A stretch of 64,000 bases of DNA, taken from the NCBI RefSeq assembly GCF_007741535.1, contig NZ_CP036525.1:1178001-1242000 (forward strand), given 5' to 3'. The notes below the pieces were generated by a model that was not told where the DNA came from, made no database searches, and saw nothing but the letters and a program-made list of their open reading frames with translations. Positions 3,056 through 62,510 of the stretch are shown piece by piece. The translations under genes were made by a program, and so were the position numbers. This DNA is from Rubripirellula lacrimiformis. Lineage in GTDB: Bacteria; Planctomycetota; Planctomycetia; Pirellulales; Pirellulaceae. The stretch's first letter is position 1. Each line of letters begins with the position of its first letter.

Positions 3056-5089
3056 ATGTTCACCCAGATTGGTCTTCCGCGTCGTCGAGCCATTCGTCGA
3101 TCGGTTTTTGTTTGCTTGCAGGTCCTGGCGGGGATCCTGGTTGCCAGTCATTCGATGTCGTCGAGCGTCGTCGCACAGGATGCCGGTATCGATGCAGCAG
3201 CCCCGGATGCCGTGAATGGGGCCAATCCAGCGATTGCCTATGCACCGGCGATCAGCCTGCTGCCCGATTCGGTCGCTGGGTTGGTGCGTGTGCCAGACCT
3301 GCCCGGATTTTGCAAAGCTTGGGAAACCACCAACATGGGCAGGTTGCTGGACGATCCGGCCATGCAACCTTTCATCGAAGCCCGACGTGATCGTGCCAAA
3401 GACTATCTGCAATCGCTCGGCAACAAGGTCGGTCTGCATTTAGAAGATCTTTACGAGATCGCATCGGGCGAGGCCGTCTTTGCTTGGTTGCCTTTCGAAA
3501 AAGACAATCGTCGCCCATTCGCCATTTGCGTAGTTGCGGATATCCGCGGACGCCGAGCCAAGGCTGACGAGGTCATGGCGACCTTGGACAAGGACCTGAA
3601 GGCTGGGGGCTGGATCCGCAGCGATGTCCAGCACCGCGGGGAAGCCGTCCGAATTTACGACACCAAGCCCAAGCCCGGGCAGTTGAAGGTCGAACAGATT
3701 GCGATCACGTTGAACGATGCTCGGATCATTGCCGCCGATCGCGACACCGTTGTCACCGATCTGTTGGATGCAATCGCGGGTTCTCCCAAAGGTCCAGCGA
3801 TCAACAAAGCAGAAGACTTTCGCACCGTGCTGACCCGATCGGCTCGCGAGATCAGTGGTCCCGCCAAGGAAAGCGGCGGAAGTTTGGCGTTTGAATGGTT
3901 TGCACGCCCGTTTCAAATGGGACGGATCGTTCGCGAATCGCTGGACATCGATCGGGGCAACCAAGTCGATGTGATCAAGTTGCTGCAGAACCAAGGGTTC
4001 GACGCGATCAAAGCGGCCGGTGGGATCGCGATCATGGCGGGCGATCCGTTTGATTTGCTGCACAAGGGTTACATCCTGGCCCCGCCGGTCACCAGCGAGC
4101 CCGATAAATACAAAATGGCTGCTCGGATGTTGCAGTTTGTGAACCAGCCGTTGGCCGAACTGCCGACTTGGATCCACGATGATGTGGCCAGTGTCAGCCG
4201 CGTGAACCTGCGGATCGAAGAAGCCTTCTGGGCGGCCGAGACATTGGTCAACGAAGCCTTCGGCGACGAAATCTTTCGTGACATCATCGACGGCATTCGT
4301 GAAGACGAAGTCGGCCCCCAAATCGACTTGGCCAAGAACGTGTTGCCCAACTTGGATGACCACGTCTTGTTGATGACCGACAACACATTGCCCGCCGAAA
4401 TTCATTCCGAACGGATGTTGGTTGCCATTCGCGTTTCGGACGCAGCGGCCATCAAACTGGCCGTCAAAAAGGCCATGGAAGTGGAACCAGACGCAAGCCG
4501 GATGGATGTGTTGCCCGGTGTCGAAATTTGGCGGGTTCAACGCGGGGAAGGGACCGACGATTTTGATGCGGAATTGTTCGGCGACTTAGCGATCGAAGAC
4601 GAAGAGGAAACCGACGAACCGCCGCCATTGTTGGACCACTGGGCCATCGCATTGGTCGAAAAAGGCCCGGGGTCGGATTCGCCTTACCTGATGTTTTCCA
4701 GCCACCCCGAATTTCTGGTCGAAACCGCCAAGCGGATTCAAGAGGGAACTCCCGGCGGCTTGGGCAGCATGCCACGTGTCGTCGCGGTCACCGGTGCGAT
4801 GAAAAAACTAGGGGCCGGTTCGGTTGCGCTGGACCGTTTGGTGCGAACCAAGTTGTCGTTGCGAGTGAAGTACCAATTGCTTCGTGAAGGTCGTTTGAAA
4901 GATAGCGACACCCTGTTGGCGTCGTTGATTCGACGCGCGGTCGAAGACGCCGATGGCGAAGAACTTGAATCCGGCGATGTCGGCAAGTTGCCGCCACTGA
5001 AGCAGATCGAACAGTATCTGCCCGAAGCCGGTGGGTACATGGAAACTCACGAAGATGGATGGGGCCTGACAGGTTTTCTGTTGAAGTAG
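3056..5089 (+). CDS. Exported protein of unknown function (677 aa)
   Basis: The protein begins with a basic stretch (PRRRAIRRS) and a hydrophobic core VFVCLQVLAGILVASHS ending near SSVVAQDA, a typical Sec signal peptide with cleavage around residue 40. The rest is a soluble, acidic, alpha/beta-looking sequence with no motif I can name. It resembles the large secreted 'hypothetical' proteins common in planctomycetes (in general style like DUF3352-type proteins), but I do not assign a function. The ATG at 3056 gives the signal peptide directly; the Shine-Dalgarno is weak. The next gene starts 50 bp after the stop in the same direction, so the two may be co-transcribed. Confidence 0.85.
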   Translation: MFTQIGLPRRRAIRRSVFVCLQVLAGILVASHSMSSSVVAQDAGIDAAAPDAVNGANPAIAYAPAISLLPDSVAGLVRVPDLPGFCKAWETTNMGRLLDDPAMQPFIEARRDRAKDYLQSLGNKVGLHLEDLYEIASGEAVFAWLPFEKDNRRPFAICVVADIRGRRAKADEVMATLDKDLKAGGWIRSDVQHRGEAVRIYDTKPKPGQLKVEQIAITLNDARIIAADRDTVVTDLLDAIAGSPKGPAINKAEDFRTVLTRSAREISGPAKESGGSLAFEWFARPFQMGRIVRESLDIDRGNQVDVIKLLQNQGFDAIKAAGGIAIMAGDPFDLLHKGYILAPPVTSEPDKYKMAARMLQFVNQPLAELPTWIHDDVASVSRVNLRIEEAFWAAETLVNEAFGDEIFRDIIDGIREDEVGPQIDLAKNVLPNLDDHVLLMTDNTLPAEIHSERMLVAIRVSDAAAIKLAVKKAMEVEPDASRMDVLPGVEIWRVQRGEGTDDFDAELFGDLAIEDEEETDEPPPLLDHWAIALVEKGPGSDSPYLMFSSHPEFLVETAKRIQEGTPGGLGSMPRVVAVTGAMKKLGAGSVALDRLVRTKLSLRVKYQLLREGRLKDSDTLLASLIRRAVEDADGEELESGDVGKLPPLKQIEQYLPEAGGYMETHEDGWGLTGFLLK

Positions 5090-5139
5090 CCCGTCGGCAC
5101 CATCACGAACGATCGTTTCAGCATCAGCGGAGCCGAGCG

Positions 5140-8100
5140 GTGTACTTCCAAAGTTTCCTGCCGTCGCTCTGCTTGGGTTGCCTGCTGACGTTCGCCCTGG
5201 GGGGCTGCTCCGGACGCGATCGTGAAACGACCGAAACCGGCGACGTTCGGGCCGCCGATCGGGCTGACGATCGGGCCGACGTTCGCGGCCAACCGAACGC
5301 TGCCGCCGGTGATTCTTCTGCCACATCGCCTGGGGATTCCGACCCCGCGAATGCGATGGCTGCGGTCGCGGCGGCATTGCGGGACAACCGTTTGGACCAA
5401 GCCGAGACGTTGCTGCGATCTCGGTTGATCCAGGCTCCCGACGATCTGCAGGCCGCTGCGTTGATCGGCGAAGTGTTGGTCCGCCGCGGTGATTTCGGCG
5501 GGGCGATCGAGTGGATCGATGGGCTGGTTGTGGACCACCCCGACCAGCGGGATGCGTTGCAAGCCGAAGCGGCAGAGATCGCGCTAGAGGCCGGCGATGA
5601 TCAGCAGGCCATCGACCGATTCAACGATCTGGTCCGCCGCAGGCCTGATTTTACGGCCGCCCGATCCCGGTTGGCAGAAGTGCTGAACCAGCGAGGGTTT
5701 CGGTTCGATGGCAACCAGCAGCTGCGTCGCTTGATGGCCCTGCAGCCGATCGGCAAGCAGCAGTGGGTCGCGATCATCCACCCGATGCAGCCCTATGCCA
5801 CGTTCACCGAGAAGCCTGACATCCACGATGCTGATCAGTTGGCACGCGTGGGGGTGATGAGTGTGGTGGCCGCACTGCGGTCTCGTAACGATCGCGTCGA
5901 GGCGCTGCAGTGTCTTCGGGAATCCGACTTGGTTGCCAACCGGAACCCGGCTGCCGTCGCGATGCTGGGACTGCTGTTTGCCGAGACTCAGGACAACGCG
6001 GCCGTCCAGGATTGGTTGGCCACCGCCGAACCGGCGACGGCACAGTACCCCGCATTTTGGATGGCGGCCGGTATGTGGTTGGCCGCTCAGCGAGACGACG
6101 CAGCGATCGACTGCTTTGTTCAGGCTTTGCGACTGGAACCGGGCAGTTTGGACGCGTGGAACAATTTGATTGCTGCGTTGGGAGTCGCCGGTGACTCGGC
6201 GGCGATCAAGATCGCCCAACAACACCGCCAACAGGTCACCGAAATGCGTTTCCTGGTCGGCCAGTGGGCGTCGCATGGAAATGGCGGCAGCGACCCCCAG
6301 TTGATTCAACGCATGACCGAACTGCTAAGTGGTAGCGGGCGTCCGATGGAATCGGTAGCGTGGCAGGAAACTGCGATCGCCGCGGTGGCGCCGGGGGCAC
6401 CCCAGTTGCAGACGCTTGCCGCCTACAAGTCCAAGGTTCTGAAGCGGTTTCCCGATGGCCGCGATCCGTCGATTTGGTTGGCGGGATTGAATGCCGAATC
6501 TCGATCGATCGATGGCTTCATGGCGACCTGGCAACGAATGCGAACCAGCCATGTGCCGACGGTGCAGGGCAGGGCAGGGGACTCGGTTGACCAGGCCGAT
6601 GCACCCATCCAGCGGCCCGTGATGGTGGGCGTGGCGAAGCAGTCGGGATTGACGTTCCGGCATCAAAATGCAGATCCGTCGATCCAACGTGAATTCCGCC
6701 TCTTTGAACCACTTGGCAGCGGCGTGGCCTGCCTGGACTATGACTGTGATGGGCAGGTTGATTTTTACTTTGCCCAAGCCGGAACCAACGTGCCGGATGT
6801 CGAAAGTTCGGTTGGCAACCAACTGTTTCGGCAATCCGATGGTGAGTTTTTGGAACAAAGCGTTGCATCGGAGTCGGGTGATTTTCGTTGGTCGACTGCC
6901 GTCACCAGTGGAGATTGGAATCAGGATGGTTTTGCCGATCTGGTCGTCGGAAGCTTGGGCCAGAACCTGCTGCTGATCAATCAAGGCGACGGTACGTTTT
7001 TGCGCCGGACGTTTGATTCGGTGGACCAACAGGGCAACCCTGAATCGGTGGATCCGATGTCGACGATGGGTTTGGCGATCGCGGACGTGACCGGCGATCT
7101 GTTGCCAGACGTGATCGAAGTGAACTATGTCGACGACTCGCGATCCCTGGATCCGATTCAACGAGACTCTCGTGGGCAACCGTTGACGTTGCCCGGACCG
7201 CTGCATTTCAAGCCAGCGGTCAATCGGGTCTTTGTGTCCCAAGGCGATGGTCGAATGGACGCCCAGGTGCTGCCCGGAGAAAGCACGGCGTTGGGTTTGA
7301 TCGTGACGGACATCGATGGGGACCGCCAAGGCGATATCTTCATCGCCAATGACCAACGTGCGAACCATTGGCACAGCCATCACATGCTTGCCGACGGCAC
7401 CCCGGTTTGGACCGATCAGGCGATCCTAGCGGGGTTGGGGTACGGGCCCGGCGGTAAACCGACGGCGTGCATGGGAATCGCGGCCGCCGATTTTGATCAC
7501 AATGGCAATCTCGATTTGCACGTTACGAACTTCATGGATGAATGGTCCAATTTGTATCTGCAGCAGGCCGCGGGCGGATTCGTTGATTCGGCGGTCGCCT
7601 ACCAGATCGACAAGGCGTCGGTTCGGATGCTGGGGTTTGGGACACAGGCGATCGATTACGACAACAATACGAGCTGGGATTTGATCGTTGGCAACGGCCA
7701 CATCGAAGACTTCCGCAGCGCCGGAAAAGCGTTCGAAATGCCGACCCAAATTTTGGCGTTTGCCGGTGGCAAATTTGTGGCGGTGGATCCCGCTGGCGAT
7801 GATCCGTTTTGGAAGACGGACCGATTGGCGCGAGCGGTGGCCAAGTGCGATTGGAATCGCGACGGTCGGACCGACATCGTCCTGACGGAAATGAATGGCG
7901 ATGCCGAGCTGCTGGAAAACCGCACTCCCGCGGCCAATCGATTCCTGCAGATCGAACTGGCAGGGGTTCACTGCGAGCGAGATGCGATCGGCGCGAAGGT
8001 CAGTGTCCAGACCGACCAAGGCGAATGGTCCCAGTGGGTCCAGACCGGCGACGGATACCTCTGCAAGAACGAATCGCTGTTGATGTTCGGGTTGGGGGGA

Positions 8101-8321: not shown

Positions 8322-9308
8322 CTATTCGGTACCGACCGCTTCGCGGACCGCTGGCAGCACTCGGTTCTGGACGTCTTCCAAGGTGCCTTCTAGGAACGCG
8401 CCTGCGGCCGCTTTGTGGCCACCGCCGCCGAACAGTTGAGCGATTTCGTTGCTGTCCATCGCACACCGGCTGCGGAAGCTGAGTTTAAAACCTCCGCGGA
8501 GTTGTTCAACGAAAATAACCGCCGCTTTGGCACCTTCGACCGCAAGCGTCAGGTTGATCGCATCCTCGGTATCGCTGGGCAGGGCACCGGTGGCTTCGAA
8601 GTCTTCTTTCTTGACGTAGGTGTGCATCAACCGCCCGTCCAATTCGGATTGGGTGCGGGACAGGATGGTGCCGCGAAGACGTAGTCGGCCGATGGTATCG
8701 CGTTCGTAAAGATCGCCGTAGATTTCGCAGGGCATGACGCCGGCATCGATCAGCCGCGCGATGACACGAAAGGTTTCTGAACTGACACTTGGGAAACGGA
8801 ACCAGCCGGTGTCGGTGGCGATTGCCGCGAACAGGGGCATGCCCATGGTGCGTGTCACGGGGACGCCCAGGGCGTCGGCAGCTTGGACCACGAGGTGACC
8901 GGTCGCTTCGGCTTGATAGTCCTTGTACATCGTCGCCCCCAGGTCGTCTTCGCCGACGTGGTGGTCCAGCACGATCTTGTCGCACGATGCTGCGCGAATG
9001 ACATCGCCCATGTCACCCAGTTGGGCCCATGCGCTGGTGTCCAAAATCATGATGCAGTCGCACGAAATGTCTTCGGCTTCGACATGATCGCCCAGTACTT
9101 CGATGCCTTCGGCGGGATCTAGGAACTGCAGCGCCGGCGGAGTTCGGTGGGCGTTGATGATGCGAACGGTCTTCCCGATGGTTCGCAGCACTTCGGCCAT
9201 CCCGAGCTCGCTGCCCAGTGCGTCGCAGTCAGGCCGAATGTGGCTGACCAAGACGAAGGATTCGTAGTGGCTGATTTGATTGGTAAAGGCTTTCCAGTTG
9301 ACGCCCAT
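8322..9308 (-). CDS. DHH/DHHA1 phosphoesterase (NrnA-type oligoribonuclease / pAp phosphatase)
   Basis: DHH-family metal-dependent phosphoesterase. Motif I SHIRPDCDALGS, motif II around LDTSAW, motif III LDHHVGEDD with the DHH triad, and a C-terminal DHHA1 domain with LFGGGGHKAAAGA are all present in order. Length (about 328 residues) is that of NrnA, which degrades nano-RNAs of 2-5 nt and dephosphorylates pAp. Which activity dominates cannot be told from sequence. The ATG at 9308 is preferred over an in-frame start 11 codons upstream because FMGVNWKAF fits the family start and an AGGA sits about 10 bases before it. ribF lies 39 bp upstream in the same direction, suggesting an operon. Confidence 0.88.
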   Translation of the reverse strand: MGVNWKAFTNQISHYESFVLVSHIRPDCDALGSELGMAEVLRTIGKTVRIINAHRTPPALQFLDPAEGIEVLGDHVEAEDISCDCIMILDTSAWAQLGDMGDVIRAASCDKIVLDHHVGEDDLGATMYKDYQAEATGHLVVQAADALGVPVTRTMGMPLFAAIATDTGWFRFPSVSSETFRVIARLIDAGVMPCEIYGDLYERDTIGRLRLRGTILSRTQSELDGRLMHTYVKKEDFEATGALPSDTEDAINLTLAVEGAKAAVIFVEQLRGGFKLSFRSRCAMDSNEIAQLFGGGGHKAAAGAFLEGTLEDVQNRVLPAVREAVGTE

Positions 9309-9347: not shown

Positions 9348-10382
9348 TCAACGTTCGGTCAGTTGGTGGCGAATGGTTTGAATGTCGTGTTGGATTTGAT
9401 CGACCAAGGCTGCCGGCGAATCAAATTTAATGATTTCGCGGGTTCTAGCAACGAAGTCGACTGATAGCGATTGGCCATACAGATCCACATCGTAGTCGAT
9501 CAGATGAATCTCGACCTTGGTCGATTGATTATCGTCAAAGGTCGGGTTGGGGCCGATGTGGATCGCCGCAGGACAGAATTCGTCGTCCGTAGCAGCGAAT
9601 GGGAGTTTAGCGGCAGTCGATTGTGATGCAGGGGAGGGAAGGGGATTCCACGCTGCGGATGGGGGATTCATCCGAACTTGGCCTGCGTACACGCCCGGTG
9701 CCGGAACTTGGCCGTCGATCTGGCTCAGATTGGCGGTCGGAAATCCGATCGTCCGTCCGCGTCCCTGGCCTGCGACAACCGTTCCACGGATGCGGTAGGG
9801 GCGACCGAGCAACGCGGTGGCCTGGTCAACGTCGCCTGAATCCAACAGCCGCCGGATCCGTGTGCTGCTGACCATTTCACCGTCCATCGTCGTCGGATGG
9901 GCAATTTGCAGCTGGATGCCGTCGGGACTCGATAGCGTTTTCAGCGTTTCGATGCTGCCTTCGCGTCCTCGGCCGAAGAAGAAATTGGGCCCTTCAACGA
10001 TTCCTTTGGCGTCCAGTGCACCGCGGATCAGCGATTGATAGAACTGGTCAGCGGTCAACCGCAGCAGCCCATCGGTGGTATCGCAGACGACCAGTGCGTC
10101 GATACCCAGGGGATGCATCAGTTCGGCCCTGCGGCTGATCGACGTCAACCGGGGTGGGGCGTGCTCGGGCCGCAGGACGGTCGCCGGGTGCGGGTCTAGG
10201 ACTACCGCGACGGCTGGGCCACCGACCTGGTCGGCAAGTTTGCGGACTTGCCGAAGCAGCGCCGCATGGCCGATGTGGACACCGTCAAAGTTGCCGATCG
10301 TGATCGCCCCGCCATGCAATCGCCCCAACGCCCGATGCTGGGCGATGTCGGTGACATTGGCGAGCGGAACGATCTGCGTCAC
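9348..10382 (-). CDS. ribF: Bifunctional riboflavin kinase / FAD synthetase
   Basis: Converts riboflavin to FMN and FMN to FAD. The N-terminal FAD synthetase domain has the nucleotidyltransferase motif ITIGNFDGVHIGH and the SSTRIRRLLDSGD motif; the C-terminal riboflavin kinase domain has RGTVVAGQGRGRTIGFPTAN and then IHIGPNPTFDD and EIHLIDYDVDLYG. Between the GVYAG strand and IHIGPNPTF the kinase domain carries an unusual insert of about 35 residues rich in Pro, Ser and Ala. I place the start at the GTG at 10382 (TQIVPLANV) although the frame continues 13 codons upstream; the Shine-Dalgarno is weak for either. Likely co-transcribed with the DHH phosphoesterase downstream. Confidence 0.92.
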   Translation of the reverse strand: MTQIVPLANVTDIAQHRALGRLHGGAITIGNFDGVHIGHAALLRQVRKLADQVGGPAVAVVLDPHPATVLRPEHAPPRLTSISRRAELMHPLGIDALVVCDTTDGLLRLTADQFYQSLIRGALDAKGIVEGPNFFFGRGREGSIETLKTLSSPDGIQLQIAHPTTMDGEMVSSTRIRRLLDSGDVDQATALLGRPYRIRGTVVAGQGRGRTIGFPTANLSQIDGQVPAPGVYAGQVRMNPPSAAWNPLPSPASQSTAAKLPFAATDDEFCPAAIHIGPNPTFDDNQSTKVEIHLIDYDVDLYGQSLSVDFVARTREIIKFDSPAALVDQIQHDIQTIRHQLTER

Positions 10383-10647
10383 AAGAAAGCAAGCGGCGGT
10401 GAAGGGCAGGGGACCCGGCAACAGGATGCTGTCGGCCCCAAATTATGCACGGCTTCCCCGATTGCTTCTAGCCTGCACAGTTTTGTGCCTCCACGGCCGG
10501 CCACCGATCGCTCAATGGGTGGGGCATTCGGGTCCGTCGTGCCGCCGACGGGCCGAAGAACAGTCTGCGGAATGCGGGGCAGGGTAGGCCGGTGATGGGG
10601 GCCTGACGCTGCGATGTCTTTGGTACAGTGGGGGATCCGGGATATCG

Positions 10648-11373
10648 GTGTCTTATCGATTTTCCCCCGGTTTGTTCCAGCGGTCGGAAAAGAGGCCTTC
10701 GTTGCTACGCAGATTTCTTCGCTTTTGCTCGATCGTTGTCCCCGTCGTCGTTTCCATTGCCATGTTGGTGGGGATGTGGAGGGACCACCGCGAATGGTTG
10801 GTGCTGGACGCCAAGATCGCCAAGTACGAGAGCGCGATCGGACGATTGGACGTGACCACCGAATCTCGCATGCACCTGATTTACAGCGACCCGGGACAGC
10901 CGGATCGGTATCAGTGGCGTGGCCATCTGCCTGCGAACCAATCGTGGCGACTGTCGTGGCGTATCGCTGGAAAGGATGCTGACTATACGCAAGTTTCCAG
11001 CACGAACAGCGAGGACTTTTTCCCGCGAGTTCGAATCGATGACGACGGTAGCGAGATGTCGCTGCATGTGCTGATTGTAGGGAAGGGGATGTCACAAAGG
11101 ATCGGCGCCGCAACTGCCGATCTGCTTCGCAAGTACCGTGACCAGTTGGTCATCGAAGTGATCGCAGAAACGGAAACGGAAGATTATCCAGTTGATCAGA
11201 TTGTCAGCCTGTTAAAGATTCGCCTTCCTGAATCGCTTCGCCAGGATGTGGTCGACCAGTTCGGTAAATTCGCTTGGCAGGTCACCGATAACGGCACGCT
11301 GGTTCATCTGCGACTCGGTACCGATCAGGCCTTGGAAGCCGAGGAAAAATCCGAGGCGGAATCCGATGAATGA
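10648..11373 (+). CDS. Single-pass membrane protein, unknown function
   Basis: A 241-residue protein starting at a GTG. After a basic N-terminus (SEKRPSLLRRFLRF) comes one clear membrane helix, CSIVVPVVVSIAMLVGMW, then a coiled-coil-prone stretch (LVLDAKIAKYESAIGRLD) and a soluble domain ending in an acidic tail (EAEEKSEAESDE). I do not recognise a family. Its stop overlaps the next gene's start (ATGAATGA), so the two are translationally coupled and probably work together at the inner membrane. Confidence 0.75.
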   Translation: MSYRFSPGLFQRSEKRPSLLRRFLRFCSIVVPVVVSIAMLVGMWRDHREWLVLDAKIAKYESAIGRLDVTTESRMHLIYSDPGQPDRYQWRGHLPANQSWRLSWRIAGKDADYTQVSSTNSEDFFPRVRIDDDGSEMSLHVLIVGKGMSQRIGAATADLLRKYRDQLVIEVIAETETEDYPVDQIVSLLKIRLPESLRQDVVDQFGKFAWQVTDNGTLVHLRLGTDQALEAEEKSEAESDE

Positions 11374-12055: not shown

Positions 12056-12925
12056 TCATTCGACGCATTGGCGGATCACGTGCGGCAGTTGTTCCAGGAT
12101 ATCGAGTGCCGTCATGCCGGCCTCGCCATGTTGGGCCGCTGCCAGGTCGCCGGCACGGCCATGAACCCAAACGCCTAGCCGGGTTGCATCCCACGGGTCC
12201 ATCTTCTGACCCAACAACGAAGTGATGACTCCCGTTAGCACGTCGCCGCTGCCACCGGTCGCCATGCCAGGGTTGCCAGTCGTGTTGGTCCATCGCTGAT
12301 CGCCGGACACGACGACGGTGGGTCCGCCTTTGACCACGATGACCGCTCCGGTGCGCTCGGCCAAAATCTGAGCGATGCTGATTTGTTGCTCGCGGTCCGA
12401 TGGCGGTACACCGGTCAATCGGTGCAGTTCGCCGGGGTGAGGCGTCAGTACCAAGCGTCCGCTGGACTGGACGTTTTCAGGGGCTGGCCAATCCATCAAC
12501 GCCAAGACATTGATGGCATCCGCGTCTAGCACGCGGGGCAGGGCAGTGGTTTGCAGTAAACGTTCAACGATCCGCACCGATCCGGCGGCCATCGTCATCC
12601 CTGGACCACACGCGATCGCGTCCAGCGGTTTTAGTTTGGCCGGCAGGGCCAGCGCCGCTTCGGTCGCAAACCGGCCCTGGGCGTCGTCGGCTAGCGGGAC
12701 GACCATCATGCATGGATGGAAACTAGCGACCGTTTCTAGGCATCGGTCGGGGACAGCGGCCGTGACCAGTCCAGATCCGGTTTTCAGAGCGGCCATCGAC
12801 GAAAGCGCGATCGATCCGCTCATCCCACGCGATCCACCCACCAACATCACTCGACCAAAGTTTCCTTTGTGGGCGTCGCTGTTGCGTGCTGGCAAATGCA
12901 CCGGAGGTAAGGGGGGGGCGTTCAT
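12056..12925 (-). CDS. nnrD: ADP-dependent (S)-NAD(P)H-hydrate dehydratase
   Basis: Metabolite-repair enzyme that reconverts hydrated NADHX/NADPHX to NADH/NADPH using ADP (ATP in eukaryotes). Ribokinase-like fold with the family motifs HKGNFGRVMLVGGSRGMSGS near the N-terminus, LTPHPGELHRLTG, and the catalytic/phosphate loop NPGMATGGSGDVLTG. It is the stand-alone C-terminal half of the usual bifunctional Nnr; the NAD(P)HX epimerase domain is not in this gene or window. Its ATG overlaps the larB stop by 4 bp (ATGA), so it is translated as the second gene of a larB-nnrD operon. Confidence 0.92.
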   Translation of the reverse strand: MNAPPLPPVHLPARNSDAHKGNFGRVMLVGGSRGMSGSIALSSMAALKTGSGLVTAAVPDRCLETVASFHPCMMVVPLADDAQGRFATEAALALPAKLKPLDAIACGPGMTMAAGSVRIVERLLQTTALPRVLDADAINVLALMDWPAPENVQSSGRLVLTPHPGELHRLTGVPPSDREQQISIAQILAERTGAVIVVKGGPTVVVSGDQRWTNTTGNPGMATGGSGDVLTGVITSLLGQKMDPWDATRLGVWVHGRAGDLAAAQHGEAGMTALDILEQLPHVIRQCVE

Positions 12926-13923
12926 GAGGACGTTTTCTCACCCGTGGTGGTGTTGGATGGCGGCGTCTGTTGATCAGCATCTTGAATCTGTCGCACCACC
13001 ATGCCGGCTAGGTACCCGCCTTTGAAGCCGGCGTCGATATTGACCACGGCCACGTTCGCGGCACAGGCAGATAGCATTCCAAGCAGCGGTGTCAGACCGC
13101 CCAGCGATGCACCGTAACCGACGCTGGTCGGCACCGCAAAGATAGGGACTGCTAGGTGGCCGGCCACAACCGAGGGCAGCGCCCCTTCCATGCCCGCCAC
13201 GACCACGACCGCCGAAGCGCGACGCAATCGGGGGACGACGGCCAACAACCGCTGAGGGCCGGCGACGCCGATGTCGTCATAGCGGGCCACTGGCACGCCC
13301 ATCCAAGCGATCGTTTCGATGGCTTCTTCGGCGACCGGGGCATCGGTGCTGCCGGCGGTGATGACCGCGACGTGCCTTGGCCCAATCGGTGCCGGGCGGG
13401 AAGTGACCGTTGTGGGTTGGTAGGTCGGTTCCGTGCCGGGGGGGGCGGTCCGCGAATCGGCGATTCCCACGGTGTCGGCGGCGCCCATTTCGGCGCCAGG
13501 GACAGACATCGCCGACCGGGCCACACGCAATGTTCGCGCGACCGGGTTGTACCGAACGTGCTCGAATCGGCTTTGTAGTGCCTCGGCGATCGACGATTCG
13601 ATGCGGGTGACCAAGGAATCTTGACCGGCCGCGATCTGGGTGGTGATGATTCGCTGGATCAAATCGGCCGGCTTTCCGGGCCCGTAAATGACTTCCCCGA
13701 ACCCGCATCGGGCTAGGCGGCCAAGGTCGACGGTTGCCCCATCGATGGCCGACGTGGCATCGGATTCACCCGCTGGGACGCTGTGATTGTCGGGGCAAAG
13801 TGCCGTCAGAGACTGGATCAGTTCGTGGGCGGTACTGCGTCCGGCGATCACTTCGCCCACCAAACGCAGCAGGGCAGGGGGCAAGTCCACGGAATTCGGT
13901 GGTTTCTCGCTGGGCTCAGGCAT
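12922..13923 (-). CDS. larB: Nickel-pincer cofactor biosynthesis protein LarB
   Basis: LarB carboxylates and hydrolyses nicotinic acid adenine dinucleotide to the biscarboxylate precursor of the nickel-pincer nucleotide used by LarA-type racemases; it is related to PurE. Visible motifs are GFGEVIYGPGKPADLI, VITAGSTDAPVAEEA, VVVAGMEGALPSVVAGH and SVGYGASLGGLTPLLGMLSAC, all typical of the family, followed by VAVVNIDAGFKGGYLAG. An insert of about 30 residues (TVGIADSRTAPPGTEPTYQP region) separates the N-terminal part from the PurE-like domain. No larC, larE or larA gene is visible in the window. Overlaps nnrD by 4 bp. Confidence 0.9.
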   Translation of the reverse strand: MPEPSEKPPNSVDLPPALLRLVGEVIAGRSTAHELIQSLTALCPDNHSVPAGESDATSAIDGATVDLGRLARCGFGEVIYGPGKPADLIQRIITTQIAAGQDSLVTRIESSIAEALQSRFEHVRYNPVARTLRVARSAMSVPGAEMGAADTVGIADSRTAPPGTEPTYQPTTVTSRPAPIGPRHVAVITAGSTDAPVAEEAIETIAWMGVPVARYDDIGVAGPQRLLAVVPRLRRASAVVVVAGMEGALPSVVAGHLAVPIFAVPTSVGYGASLGGLTPLLGMLSACAANVAVVNIDAGFKGGYLAGMVVRQIQDADQQTPPSNTTTGEKTSS

Positions 13924-15395: not shown

Positions 15396-16313
15396 TCAGT
15401 CCAGCACGTCATCGGCAAGGCGTTCATCGCCCTGTACCGTGATCAGGGCGCGGACGATCGTCGGGTCGATCGAATTCGGGACGAAGTGTCCACGCTGGTC
15501 CACCGTCGCGATCGCCACACCGCCTTCGGTCAGTCCGCCCGGTTCGTTCCCCAGGTTGGTGCCAAGGTTGCCTCGCATCGTGTTGATGTCCAAGTCGATT
15601 GGTTCGGTCCACAGGGCTGACGATGTCGTGGGAATCGCCTCGGTGACCAGGATCGTTTGCGATGGATCGTCGGTGACGTCGCTTGGCCCAAGCGGTCCTT
15701 GGGGGGGAAACAACGTACCGGGGCCGGTAATCAAGTAGTAGCCCGATTGGCTGTAAAGGCCTAAGGCATCGCCGGACGGGTGATGATAGACCGACGGCAT
15801 TTCATACTGGGCAATGTCTCGATTGACTGGATGGTTCCAGCTTAGGTTCAGGTCAAATTGGTTGTATAGATCTTCTTCGCCCAGGTACGGCAGCAACAGG
15901 ACTCGCCATGAGTGAAGCGGTTGGTTGTTCGCGTCCACTGTCATCGGAGGCGGATACACATCGTTGTCCGCCGCGTAGGCGTTCATCGCCGCGGCAATTT
16001 TTTCTAAGTTGCGAATCGTTGCGGTTTGTTCGCGGTTGCTGGCCAGCGTGGAGATCGTTTGGCTGCCAAACCGAATCACGGCAAACAGCAGGCTGCCGAT
16101 CAACAGAATTCCGACCATGGTTGCAGCGATCCAGCCGAACGTTCGCTGGTTCGACTGCGGCCCGGTCGCAGAGGGCAGGGCAGGGGATTCGCTGGAAGCC
16201 TCTGGCATTTGGATCTTGGCGCCGCAGGTGACGCACTGGCCTGCCATCCCACGGAATCGATCCTCGACCTGAGTCTTGGTTTGGCATTCGGGGCATGTGA
16301 ACAAAAATGGCAT
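15396..16313 (-). CDS. DUF1559-type membrane protein with N-terminal zinc ribbon
   Basis: About 305 residues. The N-terminus has two Cys pairs, FTCPECQTK and GQCVTCGAK, forming a zinc ribbon; then a low-complexity linker, one membrane helix (GWIAATMVGILLIGSLLFAV) and an outer domain with the DUF1559-style pattern NLEKIAAAMNAYAADNDVYPP, SWRVLLLPYLGEEDLYNQFD and a C-terminal GGVAIATVDQRGHFVP. DUF1559 proteins are hugely expanded in planctomycetes and resemble type II pseudopilins, but their role is unknown. I start at the ATG at 16313 because the zinc ribbon follows directly; the longer open frame reads into the neighbouring dtd gene's start on the other strand. Confidence 0.85.
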   Translation of the reverse strand: MPFLFTCPECQTKTQVEDRFRGMAGQCVTCGAKIQMPEASSESPALPSATGPQSNQRTFGWIAATMVGILLIGSLLFAVIRFGSQTISTLASNREQTATIRNLEKIAAAMNAYAADNDVYPPPMTVDANNQPLHSWRVLLLPYLGEEDLYNQFDLNLSWNHPVNRDIAQYEMPSVYHHPSGDALGLYSQSGYYLITGPGTLFPPQGPLGPSDVTDDPSQTILVTEAIPTTSSALWTEPIDLDINTMRGNLGTNLGNEPGGLTEGGVAIATVDQRGHFVPNSIDPTIVRALITVQGDERLADDVLD

Positions 16314-16484: not shown

Positions 16485-16952
16485 ATGAGAGTCGTATTGC
16501 AGCGTGTGTCCGAGGCCAGTGTGCAAGTCGATGGGGCCGTGGTCGGCCAGATCGGACGCGGGCTGTTGGTGTTGATTGGGGTAGGGCAGGGCGATACCGA
16601 AGCGGAGGTCCGGTGGTTGGCTGATAAAACGGTGGGCCTGCGGATCTTCGAAGACGAGCAGGGCAAAATGAATCGGTCGGTATTGGACGTCGGCGGCGAA
16701 GTCTTGGTGGTCAGCCAGTTCACGCTGTTGGCGGATTGTCGCCGCGGTCGCCGCCCGGCATTCACCGCAGCCGCCGAACCGTCGCTAGCCCGCGAATTGT
16801 ACTCGGTGTACGGCGATCTGATCGCAGAGCAGGGGATCCGCGTTCAACGTGGCATCTTCGCTGCCGACATGAAAGTGTCGCTGGTCAACGATGGCCCAGT
16901 CACGATCGTATTGGATCGTGACCCGGCGGTCGCCACGGGACTCGTGGATTGA
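16485..16952 (+). CDS. dtd: D-aminoacyl-tRNA deacylase
   Basis: Hydrolyses D-amino acids from mischarged tRNAs, a cytosolic proofreading enzyme. The 155-residue length is standard, the N-terminus [17 protein letters not shown] is typical, and both signature motifs are present: SQFTLLAD in the middle and the cis-proline motif [10 protein letters not shown] near the C-terminus. The gene is followed after 34 bp by a 147-bp tandem repeat array. Divergent from the DUF1559 gene. Confidence 0.95.
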
Positions 16953-18154: not shown

Positions 18155-18394
18155 TGGGCGGCGAGGGCAGGGGAGTGGAGTGGGGAAATTTTGCTTCCCC
18201 TGTCCATACCCTTTTCCGGGCCTGCGCCGCCAGCCGAAACCTCGCGGGATTGATCTTCGAACCTTGTTGGCAGGTCGCTATAGTCCGTTCCATGAGGCGG
18301 CTGGTTTTTTTTGCTATCAACACCCTTCCCTCATTCCGCTCAGTCCTAGGTTTGGCGGTACCCGAAATCTCTTGTGATCGCATGGATGTGTTTG

Positions 18395-19123
18395 ATGGAG
18401 ATCTATGACATTGTGATGTTGGTCGTCCTGTTCGGCGCGATGTTGTTTGGCGCCGTGAAAGGTTTGGCTTGGCAGTTAGCGTCGATCGCGTCCATCTTGG
18501 GCAGCTACGTCGTGGCACTGAAGCTGCGTGAACCGTTCAGTCAATCGATCAGCGTCGAACCACCTTGGAATCGATTTCTGGCGATGCTGATTCTGTATGT
18601 CGGTACGGCGCTTCTGATCTGGGTTGCGTTTCGAATGGTCAGCGGATCGATCGATCGGATGAAACTGCGCGAGTTCGACAATCACATTGGTGCGATTTTT
18701 GGGCTGATCAAAGGAGCGTTGTATTGCACGTTGATCACCATGTTCGCCGTGACCCTGGCCGGTGATGGAATCCGCGAAGCGGTCGTGCGAAGCAAAAGCG
18801 GGAATTACATCGCCAAAGTGCTGGACCGCAGCCAGACGGTGATCCCGCCCGAGATTCATGAAGTGATCAGTCCCTATCTGGAACGGTTCGATCGCGAGTT
18901 CAGCGAAGGCAAAACCGAAGGCGGTCTGTTGGATCAAGCGACCGGATGGTTGGCTGGTGGGGATTCGCCGCCCGCTGCACAGCCTTGGTCGCCAACCAAC
19001 TTTGTTCCTCCGCCGGGTACTGCCCAAGGGGCCATCGAGCCAATCGACCGCCAGGTCGCCGATCCAAGCAATTGGGTCCCACAGCAGGCTCAGCAAGCGA
19101 TCCAGAATCGCTTGACTCGATAG
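18395..19123 (+). CDS. CvpA family membrane protein
   Basis: Four predicted membrane helices in the N-terminal 150 residues: YDIVMLVVLFGAMLFGAVKG, ASIASILGSYVVAL, FLAMLILYVGTALLIWVAF and GAIFGLIKGALYCTLITMFAV, with the family's G-hydrophobic 'GLIKG' motif. This is the CvpA / colicin V production-protein architecture. The C-terminal 100 residues are soluble and Pro/Gln-rich. I prefer the ATG at 18395 (GGA about 8 bases upstream) over the ATG seven codons earlier. CvpA proteins affect envelope integrity and secretion in other bacteria; the exact role here is open. Confidence 0.8.
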   Translation: MEIYDIVMLVVLFGAMLFGAVKGLAWQLASIASILGSYVVALKLREPFSQSISVEPPWNRFLAMLILYVGTALLIWVAFRMVSGSIDRMKLREFDNHIGAIFGLIKGALYCTLITMFAVTLAGDGIREAVVRSKSGNYIAKVLDRSQTVIPPEIHEVISPYLERFDREFSEGKTEGGLLDQATGWLAGGDSPPAAQPWSPTNFVPPPGTAQGAIEPIDRQVADPSNWVPQQAQQAIQNRLTR

Positions 19124-19418: not shown

Positions 19419-19446
19419 ATACAACATAAGAGGCATTATCGGACGT
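19419..19446 (-). other. Candidate dif (XerC/XerD) site
   Basis: On the minus strand the 28 bp read as an 11-6-11 arrangement: XerC-like arm ACGTCCGATAA, spacer TGCCTC, XerD-like arm TTATGTTGTAT. The XerD arm matches E. coli dif (TTATGTTAAAT) at 9 of 11 positions, the inner ATAA/TTAT of both arms is conserved and the spacing is exact; the outer XerC arm is weaker. It lies in the gene-free stretch between the CvpA-like gene and accA, about 1.1 kb from where the GGGNAGGG polarity flips. Assignment is an inference. Confidence 0.4.
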
Positions 19447-19497: not shown

Positions 19498-20463
19498 CTA
19501 CGCCGGTTCCTCTAGGAACTGACCGATCTTGCGGAACTTGTCGTAGCGTCCTTGGACCAATTCGTCGCTGTCTTTTGTTTCCAGTTCGGCCAACGTTCGC
19601 GACAGATAAGTCTTCAACCGTGACGCCATCTGGTGATGGTCGCGGTGGGCGCCGCCCAGCGGTTCTTCGAGCACATCATCCACGACTCCGAGCCGCTTCA
19701 GATCACCGCTGGTGAACCGCAGTGCGGCCGCTGCCTTGGGTGCGTGTTCGTGGCTCTTCCACAGGATCCCTGCACAGCCTTCGGGGCTGATCACGCTGTA
19801 ATACGCATGCTCCAAAACGGCGACTCGGTCGCCCACGCCGATGCCCAATGCGCCCCCGGATCCGCCTTCGCCGATGACGACGCAGATGACGGGAGTTTTC
19901 AGCCGGCTCATCATGAACATGCTTTCGGCGATCACTTGCGCCTGGCCGCGTTCTTCGGCGCCGATTCCCGGGTAAGCGCCGGGTGTATCGATAAAACAGA
20001 TCAGTGGCAGGCGGTACTTTTCGGCCAACTTCATCTTGACCATCGCCTTGCGATAGCCTTCGGGATGGGCGCAACCAAAGTGGCATGCGGCGCGTTCTTT
20101 GTAAGTCCGGCCTTTCTGATGCCCCAGCACCATCACCTTGAAACGGTCCAGTTTGGCAAATCCCGACAGCATCGCTCGGTCATCGCCAAAGTGCTTATCG
20201 CCATGCAGTTCGACGAATTCGTCGAAAGCAAGGTTCAGGTAATCGCGTGTGTAGGGACGATTCTTGTGCCGCGATACCTGGACGGTTTGCCAAGCGTTCA
20301 GCGAGCTGTAGGTGTCCCGCAACTGTTTGACCAAATCCAGTCGCAAACCACGAAGCTCTGTTTCGACTTCGTCGCTGCGATCGATTTGTCGTTCCAGCTG
20401 CGCGATGCGGTCTTCAGCAACGGCAATGTTTGATTCGAATTCTAATCCTGGTCCACCACTCAT
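19498..20463 (-). CDS. accA: Acetyl-CoA carboxylase carboxyltransferase subunit alpha
   Basis: Transfers the carboxyl group from biotin to acetyl-CoA, the first committed step of fatty-acid synthesis, as an A2B2 complex with AccD (not in this window). The 321-residue length is standard. Conserved segments include NRPYTRDYLNLAFDEFVELH, GHQKGRTYKER, PLICFIDTPGAYPGIGAEERGQ and IGEGGSGGALGIGVGD, the crotonase-type oxyanion region. Its ATG overlaps the stop of the upstream kinase gene by one base (TAATG), so translation of accA is coupled to that of the kinase. Confidence 0.96.
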   Translation of the reverse strand: MSGGPGLEFESNIAVAEDRIAQLERQIDRSDEVETELRGLRLDLVKQLRDTYSSLNAWQTVQVSRHKNRPYTRDYLNLAFDEFVELHGDKHFGDDRAMLSGFAKLDRFKVMVLGHQKGRTYKERAACHFGCAHPEGYRKAMVKMKLAEKYRLPLICFIDTPGAYPGIGAEERGQAQVIAESMFMMSRLKTPVICVVIGEGGSGGALGIGVGDRVAVLEHAYYSVISPEGCAGILWKSHEHAPKAAAALRFTSGDLKRLGVVDDVLEEPLGGAHRDHHQMASRLKTYLSRTLAELETKDSDELVQGRYDKFRKIGQFLEEPA

Positions 20464-22823: not shown

Positions 22824-22863
22824 GAAAAAAGCGGCGTCCCCCGGAAAGGGGACGCCGCTTCGA
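22824..22863 (-). terminator. Intrinsic terminator downstream of fliA
   Basis: Read on the minus strand: AAGCGGCGTCCCC, a loop of about 6-7 bases, GGGGACGCCGCTT, then a run of T (TTTTTT). A near-perfect 13-bp stem with a T tract, 50 bp past the fliA stop, closing the flhA-flhF-fliA transcript. Confidence 0.9.
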
Positions 22864-30190: not shown

Positions 30191-30284
30191 GGACGGCTAG
30201 TGGCGTTTGGCGGAAATGCGAAAGAAAGGGAATAGAGGTTCGGCCGGGGGTGAAGGCTGCCCTCCCCTGCCCGACCGAAGTCAC

Positions 30285-47536: not shown

Positions 47537-49534
47537 ATGTCTGACTCCATCCGCGAATCGATTTACGAAGCGATTGCATCGATTCGACTGATCGACCCCC
47601 ACACGCACATCAATCCCCATGCGGCCGGTTCGACAACTTTGGCAGACCTGTTGGGCTATCACTATTACACCGAACTGGCGCATTCGGCGGGGATGCCGAA
47701 GCAACAGATCGAAGAACCGGGGATCGGCCCGCGTGAACTGGTTCGCCGATTGGTCGAAAATCTCTCGCCGCTGGAAAATACGGCCCAGTACCGATGGTTG
47801 GTCGAAATCTGTCGGATGTTCTTCGGGTTCGATGGCGATCGGATCGACGCGTCGAATTGGGAATCGCTGTACGACACGGCCGAAACCCAGATGGCATCGG
47901 CGGATTGGGCCCAGATGGTGCTGGATCAAAGCAACGTCGAAGCGGTCTTTTTGACCAACGATTTTGATGATGATTTGGCCGGCTTCGACACCGACACTTA
48001 CATCCCTTGCCTGCGCACCGACGATCTGGTGTTCCACTTGGCCAAGCCCGAAGTCCGCCAGCGTTTGGCCGGTTGTTCGGGGATCGAATTGGACGGGTCG
48101 CTGGCTTCGTTGCGGGCGTCATTGCGTCAGCGGTTCCAGCACTTTGTCGCACGCGGGGCGCGCGCTTGTGCGATCTCGTTGCCGCCAACCTTCCAGCCCG
48201 CCCCGGTCAGCGATGGGCGAGCGGCCACCGCGCTGGACCAAGTCCTTCGCCGCGGTGTGCTGGCGGATGATTCGCACAAACAGGCGCTGTCGCGTCGCGT
48301 GTTTTGGACGCTGGCGGAACTCTGTGACGAATTCGGGCTGCCCTTCGATCTGATGATTGGCGTGAATCGTGGCGTCTATGCCAACGGCGTCTACCAGGGC
48401 CAAGACCTGTACGACAGCCGCGTGTCGTTGATCCAGTATCGGGAACTGTTCAATGCGTTCCCCGATGTCAAGTTTCCCGTCTCCGTTTTGGCCAGCGTCA
48501 CCAACCAGGAATTGGTCAGTTACGCATGGATCTTTCCCAACGTGATCACCAACGGTCACTGGTGGTACAGCAATACGCCGTCGTTCATCGCTCGCGATGC
48601 GGCTGCCCGATTGGAAGCCGTCCCCCAAACCAAGCAGATTGGTTATTACAGCGACGCCTATAAATTGGAATTCGTCTGGCCCAAGTTCGACATGTACCGT
48701 CATGTGCTCTCCGGCGTGTTGGCCGACCACTTTGTTGGCAGCTGTGGGTGGAGCGAAGAGCGCGCGGTCGCACTGGGCCGTCGCGTGCTACGAGACAACG
48801 TCGACGAGATTTTTCCGCGACCGACGAAACAACCCGAACGGGTCGATCCGTTGGCGGACACCTGGACCGATGATGATTCCGGAATCTCGCTAGGTTCGAT
48901 CGGTTCCGCCGGTGCCGCGGCGATCGGAGCAGCCGGGATTCTGGGGGGAAATGATTCACCGACATCACCCAGCAGTGAATCGGATCGGATGACTGCCCTG
49001 CCCTCGGACGCTGGATCCAGCGAAACCGTTGCGATCGATGATGACGATGACGAAGACGGGCTAGCCGATTTCGCCACCGTCAGTGAAGCCGACGAAACGA
49101 TCCGTATCGACGAAGACGATGCATCCGAAGTGGATCCGATCGTTGATAGCCTGAATCCGTTGATGGACCTGGATCCGTTGCCAAGCGAAGACGAGATCCA
49201 GTCGGCCGAAGTGGATGATGTCGAATTGCGAGACACGTCGTCCCAGCGAACCGCACCGGATGCGGAATCCATCGCCAGCGAACTGGACGACCAACCGTTG
49301 GACCTGGGTGATATGTTTGCCGACGACGATGGGCCCCAGGCTAGTGTCGAAGACGGTCCGCAGATCAAACAGCTTCGCGGCGAAGAATCGTTCAATCCCG
49401 ACGATGAATCGTTGAAACTAACGCCCGATCCATTGACCGGTGAATTGACCTTCGCAGTTGGCGACGACGAAGAGATCGCCGACCCCAACGCGACGTTGGA
49501 AATCAAAGACGACGACGAACAGAAGCCCAGCTGA
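47537..49534 (+). CDS. Glucuronate isomerase-like amidohydrolase with long acidic C-terminal extension
   Basis: 665 residues. The first 440 residues are a TIM-barrel enzyme of the UxaC / amidohydrolase type: LIDPHTHINPHAAG carries the metal-binding HxH, SAGMPKQQI, FDLMIGVNRGVYANGVYQGQ and VITNGHWWYSNTPS are typical. UxaC isomerises glucuronate to fructuronate; the substrate here is not certain. From about residue 450 a Asp/Glu/Ser-rich tail of about 215 residues begins (many DDDDDED and EDE runs), with no recognisable domain. ATG at 47537 (SDSIRESIYEAI) chosen; the frame is open upstream. Confidence 0.82.
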   Translation: MSDSIRESIYEAIASIRLIDPHTHINPHAAGSTTLADLLGYHYYTELAHSAGMPKQQIEEPGIGPRELVRRLVENLSPLENTAQYRWLVEICRMFFGFDGDRIDASNWESLYDTAETQMASADWAQMVLDQSNVEAVFLTNDFDDDLAGFDTDTYIPCLRTDDLVFHLAKPEVRQRLAGCSGIELDGSLASLRASLRQRFQHFVARGARACAISLPPTFQPAPVSDGRAATALDQVLRRGVLADDSHKQALSRRVFWTLAELCDEFGLPFDLMIGVNRGVYANGVYQGQDLYDSRVSLIQYRELFNAFPDVKFPVSVLASVTNQELVSYAWIFPNVITNGHWWYSNTPSFIARDAAARLEAVPQTKQIGYYSDAYKLEFVWPKFDMYRHVLSGVLADHFVGSCGWSEERAVALGRRVLRDNVDEIFPRPTKQPERVDPLADTWTDDDSGISLGSIGSAGAAAIGAAGILGGNDSPTSPSSESDRMTALPSDAGSSETVAIDDDDDEDGLADFATVSEADETIRIDEDDASEVDPIVDSLNPLMDLDPLPSEDEIQSAEVDDVELRDTSSQRTAPDAESIASELDDQPLDLGDMFADDDGPQASVEDGPQIKQLRGEESFNPDDESLKLTPDPLTGELTFAVGDDEEIADPNATLEIKDDDEQKPS

Positions 49535-49991: not shown

Positions 49992-51596
<1,605 letters not shown>

Positions 51597-51828: not shown

Positions 51829-52034
51829 GGGCTTATGTTAGCCAGGACCCCGCGCCCGCGTCAACGGTTCACTTCGATTGCTGAATTTGGCAGCGAAAGC
51901 TGGATTTGCCGCAGTCCAGTCTCCCGTCACGGCCGCGCCGCCACGCAAATCTCTTTGCGTGCGCCTTGCGTACGCGGTGCGTGCGGTGTATGATTCGCTC
52001 GTTCACTGCCCTGCCCCGTTCACGGAAAACAAAA

Positions 52035-56549: not shown

Positions 56550-57368
56550 TCAGCGAAGCATTTTCAGCGCGGCGTCGTGCAGTCGCCCGTTGGTGCCCAC
56601 CCCGTCGCCGCCGCGACAGGTTTCGATGCCTTTCCAGTCGGTGAATTTGCCACCGGCTTCGACCACAACCGGCAGGATCGCGGCCACATCCCAGGCGTTG
56701 CATTCGGGGTCGACCATGATGTCGGCTCGCCCGGTGGCCACCATCAGGTATCCGTATCCATCGCCCCAGGATCGAGTCAGCCAGGCGGCTTTTTCCAGAT
56801 CCTTGTAGGCGGATTGGGCACCGCGTTGATCGAACGAATCGACTTGGCTGACCACAAACACCGCTTCGGCGATGTCCGATTTGGTCGAAACGGCGGCCTT
56901 TTTCCAGGGGCTCGATTCGACGGCATGGTCGTCTTTGAACCAACTGCCCTGCCCCACCGCGGCGACGATGATTTCGCCAGTCGCGGGAATGAAGATGACT
57001 CCGCCCAGCGGTTTGCCGTCCCATTCCAGCGCCAGCAGCGTCGAATACAGAGGAACGCCACAGACGAACGATTTGGTCCCATCGATCGGGTCGACGACCC
57101 ATCGATAGCGGCTGGTGCCGGCCTGTTCGGCGAATTCCTCGCCTTGCACCGTGTCGCTAGCAAACCGCTGCTGGATCAATTTGCGGACCAACTGCTCGGC
57201 TTCGCGGTCGGCGACCGTGACGGGGGATTCGTCGGATTTCGCATCGATCACCAAACTGTCGCTGCGAAAATACTTCAGCGTGTGGTGTCCGGCTGCGACG
57301 GCGACGTCGATCATCGCCGACAATCGGCCGTCGTGGGCTTCGGTCCAGGAATCAGGATTTTGCGACAT
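56550..57368 (-). CDS. Inositol-monophosphatase family phosphatase, histidinol-phosphatase-like
   Basis: 272 residues. Metal-binding motifs in order: VQGEEFAEQAG (Glu pair), WVVDPIDGTKSFVCGVPLY (DPIDGT) and ECNAWDVAAILPVVVEAGG (WD). The KSF after DPIDGT and overall length are closer to HisN-type histidinol-phosphatases than to inositol monophosphatase proper, so histidine synthesis is the best guess; substrate is not proven by sequence. The start overlaps the lspA 3' end by 17 bp, so it is the downstream partner of lspA. Confidence 0.86.
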   Translation of the reverse strand: MSQNPDSWTEAHDGRLSAMIDVAVAAGHHTLKYFRSDSLVIDAKSDESPVTVADREAEQLVRKLIQQRFASDTVQGEEFAEQAGTSRYRWVVDPIDGTKSFVCGVPLYSTLLALEWDGKPLGGVIFIPATGEIIVAAVGQGSWFKDDHAVESSPWKKAAVSTKSDIAEAVFVVSQVDSFDQRGAQSAYKDLEKAAWLTRSWGDGYGYLMVATGRADIMVDPECNAWDVAAILPVVVEAGGKFTDWKGIETCRGGDGVGTNGRLHDAALKMLR

Positions 57369-62318: not shown

Positions 62319-62377
62319 CCCCAGCCGGCGTGCGGGGCATTACGTCTGCTGAGGCAAACGGAGATGTGTTTCCGCGG

Positions 62378-62510
62378 CCTGCTGATTGAGTGAGCCGTGA
62401 TCGCGTGAGCGGCCGGGCATTGCCCTTCCCCCATTGCCCGTGGCCTCACGGCCAGCAGCTCACCATTCCCGTTGAAAGTTCGGCTAAATCAGCAGTCGGC
62501 TAGCCACGGT
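62378..62510 (-). repeat. Interspersed inverted-repeat element, copy E
   Basis: Inverted copy: TGATTGAGTGAGCCGTGATC, GCGTGAGCGGCCGGGCATTG, CCTCACGGCCAGCAGCTCAC, CATTCCCGTTGAAAGTTCGG and CTAAATCAGCAG. It follows the MFS gene stop. Confidence 0.75.

Follow-up and report, generated by a model that had tools for sequence, protein, structure and literature searches.

The window analysed here was a 64-kb stretch of the chromosome of Rubripirellula lacrimiformis (genome G000). It contained a G-rich octamer, GGGNAGGG, resembling the FtsK-orienting polar sequences (KOPS), and a 28-bp site resembling dif. The dif-like site was located on the minus strand at 19,419–19,446 (1.197 Mb on the chromosome), in the spacer between a CvpA-like gene on the left (18,374–19,123, plus strand; Pfam Colicin_V, 77.3 bits) and accA on the right (19,498–20,463, minus strand; Pfam ACCA, 438 bits). 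The octamer occurred 33 times, 16 times on the plus strand and then 17 times on the minus strand, and no copy in the opposite orientation was found on either side of the switch when both strands of the window were searched. The positions and strands listed in an earlier note on this DNA were all confirmed.

The plus-strand sites all pointed towards dif. Single copies of GGGCAGGG were located at 8577–8584, 10,404–10,411, 10,577–10,584, 12,536–12,543, 13,872–13,879, and 18,165–18,172, the last of which was the final plus-strand copy ahead of dif, and two overlapping copies were found at 6567–6579 and again at 16,173–16,185. GGGAAGGG was located at 4545–4552 and 11,080–11,087 and overlapped GGGGAGGG at 9631–9643, and GGGTAGGG overlapped GGGCAGGG at 16,579–16,591. 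The first minus-strand site, GGGAAGGG at 18,323–18,330, lay 1.1 kb left of dif and was the sole site of the 33 pointing away from it. The other minus-strand sites pointed towards dif, the nearest copies on its right being an overlapping GGGAAGGG and GGGCAGGG at 21,640–21,652. These were followed by two overlapping GGGCAGGG copies at 22,549–22,561 and at 36,097–36,109, an overlapping GGGGAGGG and GGGCAGGG at 30,260–30,272, GGGTAGGG at 38,289–38,296, single GGGCAGGG copies at 39,649–39,656, 39,727–39,734, 48,996–49,003, 50,856–50,863, 52,009–52,016, and 56,947–56,954, and GGGAAGGG at 62,423–62,430. The earlier note had both arms pointing to 18–21 kb, and the dif-like site lies inside this interval; its switch point of about 18.2 kb is moved to dif at 19.42 kb, 1.2 kb to the right.

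Dinucleotide shuffles gave an expectation of 6.96 copies of GGGNAGGG per window, and 33 copies were reached in 0 of 100 shuffles. Because eight GGGNAGGG pairs overlapped at a 5-bp step, the copies represented 25 independent loci, and the chance of a single-switch pattern was about 52/2^25 = 1.6e-6 (hand arithmetic for 25 fair strands and one free breakpoint). A ranking covered the 2,888 non-palindromic octamers that were present six or more times in the window. Of these, GGGCAGGG, which accounted for 23 of the 33 GGGNAGGG sites, had the strongest single-switch polarity (23/23, z 4.80), and its strand switch was bracketed by 18,165 and 21,645. The top 6-mer and 7-mer of the window were AGGGCA (4.94) and GGCAGGG (4.75), respectively, and the 5-mer AAGAA reached 5.55, but with far more copies. 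The heptamer GAAGAAC was strand-polarised in the window too and changed strand between 14.2 and 19.7 kb, and in the surrounding contiguous 460 kb GAAGA pointed towards dif 645 times versus 469, possibly as a second, weaker polar motif.

A compositional or transcriptional artefact would require any G-rich octamer to be equally polarised, and the motif is indeed G-rich in a window with regional skew. The GC skew of the window was positive in every 2-kb bin left of the switch and mixed, with a positive net value, to the right, where the cumulative skew climbed from 1.20 to 2.03 although the right-hand motifs were all on the minus strand. Composition therefore offers no explanation for the motif polarity, since the GC skew undergoes no sign change where the motif flips. 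In the 460 kb, 70 of 72 GGGCAGGG sites pointed towards dif and 2 away, and 92 of 101 GGGNAGGG sites pointed towards it, whereas the reversed control GGGANGGG was unpolarised (14/17 and 11/12). Among the 56 octamers sharing this composition, GGGCAGGG ranked first in the 460 kb with a z of 8.0. The next values, 4.3 and 4.2, belonged to shifted copies of GGGCAGGG and were followed by 2.3. The remaining octamers, when pooled, leaned slightly the same way (347:270), but none came near 70:2. The flip also recurred at the same 28-mer in all eight single-contig genomes described below. The matched-octamer control excludes an artefact of this kind, which is almost certainly the wrong explanation.

The longer words AGGGCAGGG (42 towards dif, 0 away in the 460 kb) and CAGGGCAGGG (32 and 0) indicate a preferred extension of GGGCAGGG by the 5-bp step. 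In a sample comprising 28.8% of the genome, GGGCAGGG was densest around dif, with 44 copies in 302 kb to the right and 36 in 298 kb to the left, compared with 1–11 per bin of 113–190 kb elsewhere. Across the genome, GGGNAGGG was not over-represented (389 + 419 = 808, versus 479 + 495 = 974 for its reversed control). The peculiarity of the octamer is thus its local density and orientation and not its genome-wide abundance.

Polarity over the whole genome and across genomes was measured on the rarer 10-mer CAGGGCAGGG instead of GGGNAGGG. In R. lacrimiformis, 77 of 78 CAGGGCAGGG sites fitted dif and parB as two poles. In eight single-contig genomes of the family, including R. lacrimiformis and representing six genera, 397 of the 412 listed sites pointed to dif; 412 of 414 sites were examined, and the two left out were both forward sites among the 42 of G072. 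Within 500 kb of dif, all 185 loci pointed to dif. The flip bracketed dif in each of the eight genomes, with the nearest sites at 3.3–21.7 kb on one side and 1.7–35.8 kb on the other. Only 164 of the 412 sites fitted an axis from the dnaA gene at the contig start to the point opposite. Rounded lengths were used in the fit for G036, G011, G028, and G072; the site counts rest on these, and the geometry was recomputed with exact lengths. The KOPS-like character proposed for the octamer is thus borne out by its polarity to dif in R. lacrimiformis and seven relatives. A run of CAGGG at G000:C1:4518725-4518779, 3.3 Mb from dif, contained six CAGGGCAGGG copies in 55 bp, all of them directed towards dif.

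The dif-like 28-mer was composed of an 11-bp arm, ACGTCCGATAA (19,446–19,436), a centre, TGCCTC, and a second arm, TTATGTTGTAT (19,429–19,419), read on the minus strand. It was the best match of the window to both the E. coli and the B. subtilis dif, with 17 of 28 bases each, and the next best match had 16. At up to 3 mismatches, the 28-mer was present in 21 of 100 genomes of the family, in one copy per chromosome in all 21, and its mismatches were all in the centre except for one T/C position. Named carriers of the site included Rhodopirellula and Rubripirellula, members of the Pirellulaceae. Its arms had 0.99–1.00 identity to the consensus of the 21 family loci and the flanks only 0.53–0.54. 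The arm conservation is partly built in by the mismatch limit and by an alignment that required the arms, whereas the restriction of mismatches to the centre and the flank values are not. With a free centre, the 28-mer was present in 200 of 297 genomes of the class, and reversed-pattern controls gave 0 matches in the family and class genome scans. Within 3 kb around dif, a CvpA-like homologue was found in 20 of the 21 family loci (none in L019, from G028) and an accA homologue in 18 (none in L018, L019, or L026). In a published catalogue (Kono 2011; PMC3025954), planctomycete dif was absent, with 0 of 1 predicted.

Outside the family, some genomes of families f16 and f18 had two dif-like sites. 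In f18, the sites formed inverted pairs with starts 65–98 bp apart in 18 genomes among the matches listed (e.g., G268:C1:42860-42985 and G257:C1:11354-11446), which may be a duplicated dif or a Xer-based element. The pattern was also found on the plasmid pSINAC02 of Singulisphaera acidiphila (L272), which may use the host Xer proteins for dimer resolution. The scan for this pattern matched at least 120 stretches, and among the matches listed it also occurred on contigs labelled Alphaproteobacteria, Verrucomicrobiota, Chlamydiae, and Acidobacteria (L183, L185, L200, L230, and others), and these non-planctomycete matches could reflect chance, mis-binning, or dif arms in common.

Genes that would read and cut such sites were found in the R. 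lacrimiformis genome. The FtsK gene encoded FtsK_alpha, FtsK_SpoIIIE, and FtsK_gamma domains. The gamma domain (PF09397, 88.9 bits) matched the FtsK of PDB codes 2VE8 and 2VE9 (41.6 bits), which we take to be the P. aeruginosa FtsK gamma domain, with 2VE9 as its KOPS complex. Two strong Xer genes were present among 24 matches, a XerD-like gene with 354.1 bits, above the cut-off, and a XerC-like gene with 328.2 bits, just below the cut-off of 329.6. The octamer with its GGGCAGGG core, often in 5-bp-step tandems, would accordingly be the KOPS of R. lacrimiformis, pointing the FtsK translocase along both arms to the single dif at 19,419–19,446. There, the XerC/XerD-type recombinases would resolve chromosome dimers and so finish segregation. 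From these sequences we infer recognition of the motif by FtsK and cleavage of the 28-mer by the recombinases, and the assignment of the motif and the site to KOPS and dif, as members of a known system, is well supported.

The partition genes were located opposite dif. In all eight single-contig genomes, the best ParB homologue lay opposite dif with an offset of 1.9–8.9% of the chromosome, and it was 34–45% away from the dnaA gene at the contig start. The two loci that were read, in G000 and G006, contained a parA-parB operon, identified by the Pfam domains ParB_N, HTH_ParB, ParB_C, and AAA_31 in G000 and by open reading frames (ORFs) in G006. The operon was located at about 5.2 Mb in G000, and in G083 parB fell inside the 0.3-Mb interval of the far motif flip. 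In G006, two exact parS sites were found within about 5 kb of parB, and in G072 within about 7 kb. None of the eight parB loci of about 3.5 kb contained a perfect 16-bp palindrome. Second ParB homologues were found in two of the eight genomes, at G055:C1:7339628 (142 bits) and G011:C1:6925511 (130 bits); the dnaA gene at the contig start was about 0.6 Mb away in the former and about 0.3 Mb away in the latter.

Two DnaA proteins were encoded, one of full length (L149), the other short and located at the contig start (L049:1-1110). The full-length DnaA was located 146–818 kb from parB in all eight genomes, and at 4.39 Mb in G000. The short DnaA, dnaN, and DciA were together at the contig start of G000, homologues of all three were found at the start of G055, and in the other six genomes the short DnaA-like gene was the one located there. 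When the position of dif was compared with this gene, dif lay 8–19% of the chromosome from it and 31–42% from the point opposite (8/8 genomes). This closeness was not made by rotation of the records, because in strain CA13 (G087, 20 contigs), whose main contig does not start at dnaA, the distance came to 10% of that contig. In two further records, dif lay at 47.1% (Pan216; L244, CP036279.1) and 85.7% (TBK1r; L294, CP036432.1); if both records start at dnaA, the layout of Pan216 would be conventional and that of TBK1r off-axis.

In order to locate the ends of replication, the strand skew was computed at 4-fold sites with correction for the coding strand in three genomes of three genera, G000, G055, and G083. 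The ORFs used here and in the orientation counts were greedy longest ORFs, not curated genes. In G000, all 340-kb bins between 0 and 4.4 Mb had a T-rich plus strand, and up to 4.08 Mb this strand was also G-rich, with the single exception of the bin at 680 kb (-0.011). Beyond these bins the skew was reversed, except for A/T in the last, single-segment bin. A free two-breakpoint fit to 106 segments, for which one in four segments of the contiguous 460 kb was kept, placed one switch at 0 Mb (-92 to +50 kb) and the other at 4.35 Mb (4.2–4.5), with an R2 of 0.57. In G055, the fit gave 0 (-399 to +400 kb) and 3.55 Mb (3.55–4.5) with an R2 of 0.65 from 20 segments, one of which, at 6.5 Mb, had the wrong sign. 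The two discriminating quadrants of G083, +0.061 (standard error 0.015) and -0.041 (standard error 0.011), had the signs that a contig-start origin would give. The skew composition of the three genomes thus predicts an origin at the contig-start dnaA and a terminus opposite.

These results did not bear out the probable replication terminus that the earlier note had proposed for this locus. The skew of G000 near 1.197 Mb was noisy and without a lasting switch, and dif and the fitted GC switch were about 3.15 Mb apart, or 37% of the chromosome. The GC-skew extremum expected at 18–21 kb was absent in the free fit at 4-fold sites, and dif did not lie at a GC-skew switch in G000, G055, or G083. Neither a skew extremum nor a position opposite the contig-start dnaA gene was found for dif. 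This lowers the case for a terminus but not the case for dif, because lying at the switch is a positional rule and not part of the site.

Replication might nevertheless run from near parAB, at about 5.2 Mb, to dif as an ordinary terminus, with the skew and the dnaA-dnaN position being relics or otherwise caused. Such an arrangement would leave KOPS, dif, and parB mutually aligned as usual. The full-length DnaA near parB in all eight genomes would fit it, as would the gene orientation in G000, which was slightly better (692 to 595). It is distinctly unlikely, as the 4-fold-site skew had no lasting switch at dif or at parB. When the parB/dif axis was fitted to the skew, the R2 was 0.20 in G000 and 0.10 in G055, with the opposite sign in both, versus 0.57 and 0.65 for the dnaA-dnaN axis, and the quadrants of G083 fit the contig-start origin. 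The agreement of G000, G055, and G083 means that the skew axis was kept in three genera.

The axis of FtsK and parABS thus appears rotated relative to the skew axis, in three genera by skew and in eight genomes by gene positions. Taken together, the data make it probable that the motif and the site are KOPS and dif, with dif marking the end of an FtsK/parABS segregation axis apart from the skew-predicted terminus. An origin at dnaA-dnaN is favoured by the gene cluster, by the normal sign of the skew, and by the recurrence in three genera; leading strands are G/T-rich as a rule. With the origin at the contig-start dnaA, parB would not be close to oriC.

Several observations weigh against this reading or are neutral. 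Far from dif, the octamer was sparse and mixed, with 3 plus and 1 minus copies at 1.0–2.0 Mb to the right. The dif match of 17/28 is modest on its own, with several matches of 16 elsewhere in the window, and 97 of the 297 class genomes had no 28-mer match within 3 mismatches, including 7 of 8 in genus g44 of the same family. The recognition helix of the FtsK gamma domain differs from that of P. aeruginosa at some positions (GYGRAAKLIDFM versus GYNRAARMIEAM). Only two of the eight genomes had exact parS sites, and matches with one mismatch were no commoner than in the control. Both parB and the full-length DnaA lay on the opposite side from the contig-start dnaA-dnaN, where the single close DnaA box before dnaA was TTATCCACA at -163, with no cluster. 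The skew was noisy, with the negative GC bin at 680 kb, and from 1.22 Mb on, three of six 40-kb bins were slightly GC-negative, with the AT sign kept in five of six. Under a dnaA-dnaN origin, 598 ORFs of G000 were co-directional versus 689 head-on, and the ratio in G055 was 105:105. Hits to 71 E. coli housekeeping queries were undecided (9:9 in G000 and 5:1 for this origin in G055), and the 16S gene ran with it, whereas both 23S genes found ran against it.

Some of these observations would be accommodated if the sign of the skew were inverted, with replication starting where the skew peaks, at about 4.35 Mb and on the same side as parAB, and ending at dnaA-dnaN, and with a C/A-rich leading strand. 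This would bring parAB closer to the origin and dif closer to the terminus, at a distance of 8–19% of the chromosome. The ORFs of G000 would show a weak co-directional excess (689 to 598), both 23S genes would run with replication, and the full-length dnaA of G000 lies at 4.39 Mb. This arrangement is unlikely. It needs a leading-strand bias reversed from the G/T-rich rule, and the terminus would have to carry an initiator-clamp-loader gene cluster. The housekeeping genes do not decide for it (9:9 in G000, 1 of 6 in G055), and by hand arithmetic five of the eight genomes had more than 1 Mb between the full-length dnaA and the point opposite the contig-start dnaA.

The orientation of tRNA genes was mixed, with too few genes, and GC content as a proxy for replication timing gave no signal; its second cosine fit and its binned means used the same thinning of the 460 kb as the skew fit. 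The segments densest in DnaA boxes, at 5.58 and 5.80 Mb, were rejected as oriC. They held three pairs of inverted TTATTCACA boxes 1,557 bp apart, which from this spacing are probably the ends of a repeated element resembling an insertion sequence. Five tandem copies of 113 bp were found at L147:11801-12372, near 5.58 Mb. The 16S and 23S genes at about 853–866 kb of G000:C1 were about 8 kb apart on opposite strands, and a second 23S gene was located at 6.63 Mb. At 22,830–22,859 of the window, AGCGGCGTCCC formed a perfect inverted repeat around an 8-base gap and resembled a terminator or a repetitive extragenic palindromic element.

On balance, we lean towards two axes in this family, with replication running from dnaA-dnaN-dciA to the point opposite, and segregation from a late-replicated parABS to an early-replicated dif, the KOPS following segregation only. 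Planctomycetes of this kind are budding bacteria without FtsZ. If the two axes are true, the orders of replication and segregation would be uncoupled, which would perhaps suit budding, where the bud receives a chromosome that is already finished. If sequencing coverage confirms the skew-based origin, the axes of replication and segregation would be separable stably across a bacterial family, and direct tests of what causes GC skew and what links parS to the origin would become possible in these bacteria.

The FtsK-KOPS-XerCD-dif system is known from E. coli, Pseudomonas, and Vibrio. The R. lacrimiformis elements share with it the GGGNAGGG consensus, the polarity to dif on both arms, the density peak at dif, the FtsK gamma domain, the two Xer recombinases, and a 28-bp site with 11-bp arms. 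They differ from it in a core narrowed to GGGCAGGG with 5-bp-step tandems, in a dif that matches the E. coli one at 17 of 28 bases, and in a convergence off the skew switch and far from the point opposite dnaA-dnaN. A literature search by titles and abstract openings, which covered few subscription journals, found no prior report of a planctomycete KOPS or dif or of a displaced dif/parS axis. The motif also resembles the architecture-imparting sequences (AIMS), strand-biased octamers densest near the terminus or dif according to PMC5993296, the main text of which does not mention planctomyc or Rhodopirellula. That study used dif at the terminus to validate its origin and terminus calls, whereas here the two disagree.

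According to PMC6199493, a mean of 13 kb separates the GC switch from dif over 2,027 chromosomes, and parS is invariably near the origin. The first rule seems to fail here whichever account of replication holds, and the second seems to fail unless the origin lies near parAB. In P. aeruginosa PAO1-UW, as described in the same paper (PMC6199493), segregation and not replication ends at dif. The R. lacrimiformis chromosome would resemble that strain in having a segregation axis apart from the replication terminus and KOPS that track dif. In PAO1-UW, dif lies about 0.7–0.8 Mb from the terminus after an inversion, with the GC switch within 15 kb of dif (PMC6199493), whereas in R. lacrimiformis the GC switch is separated from dif by the 3.15 Mb given above, and parB is displaced too, in eight genomes of six genera.

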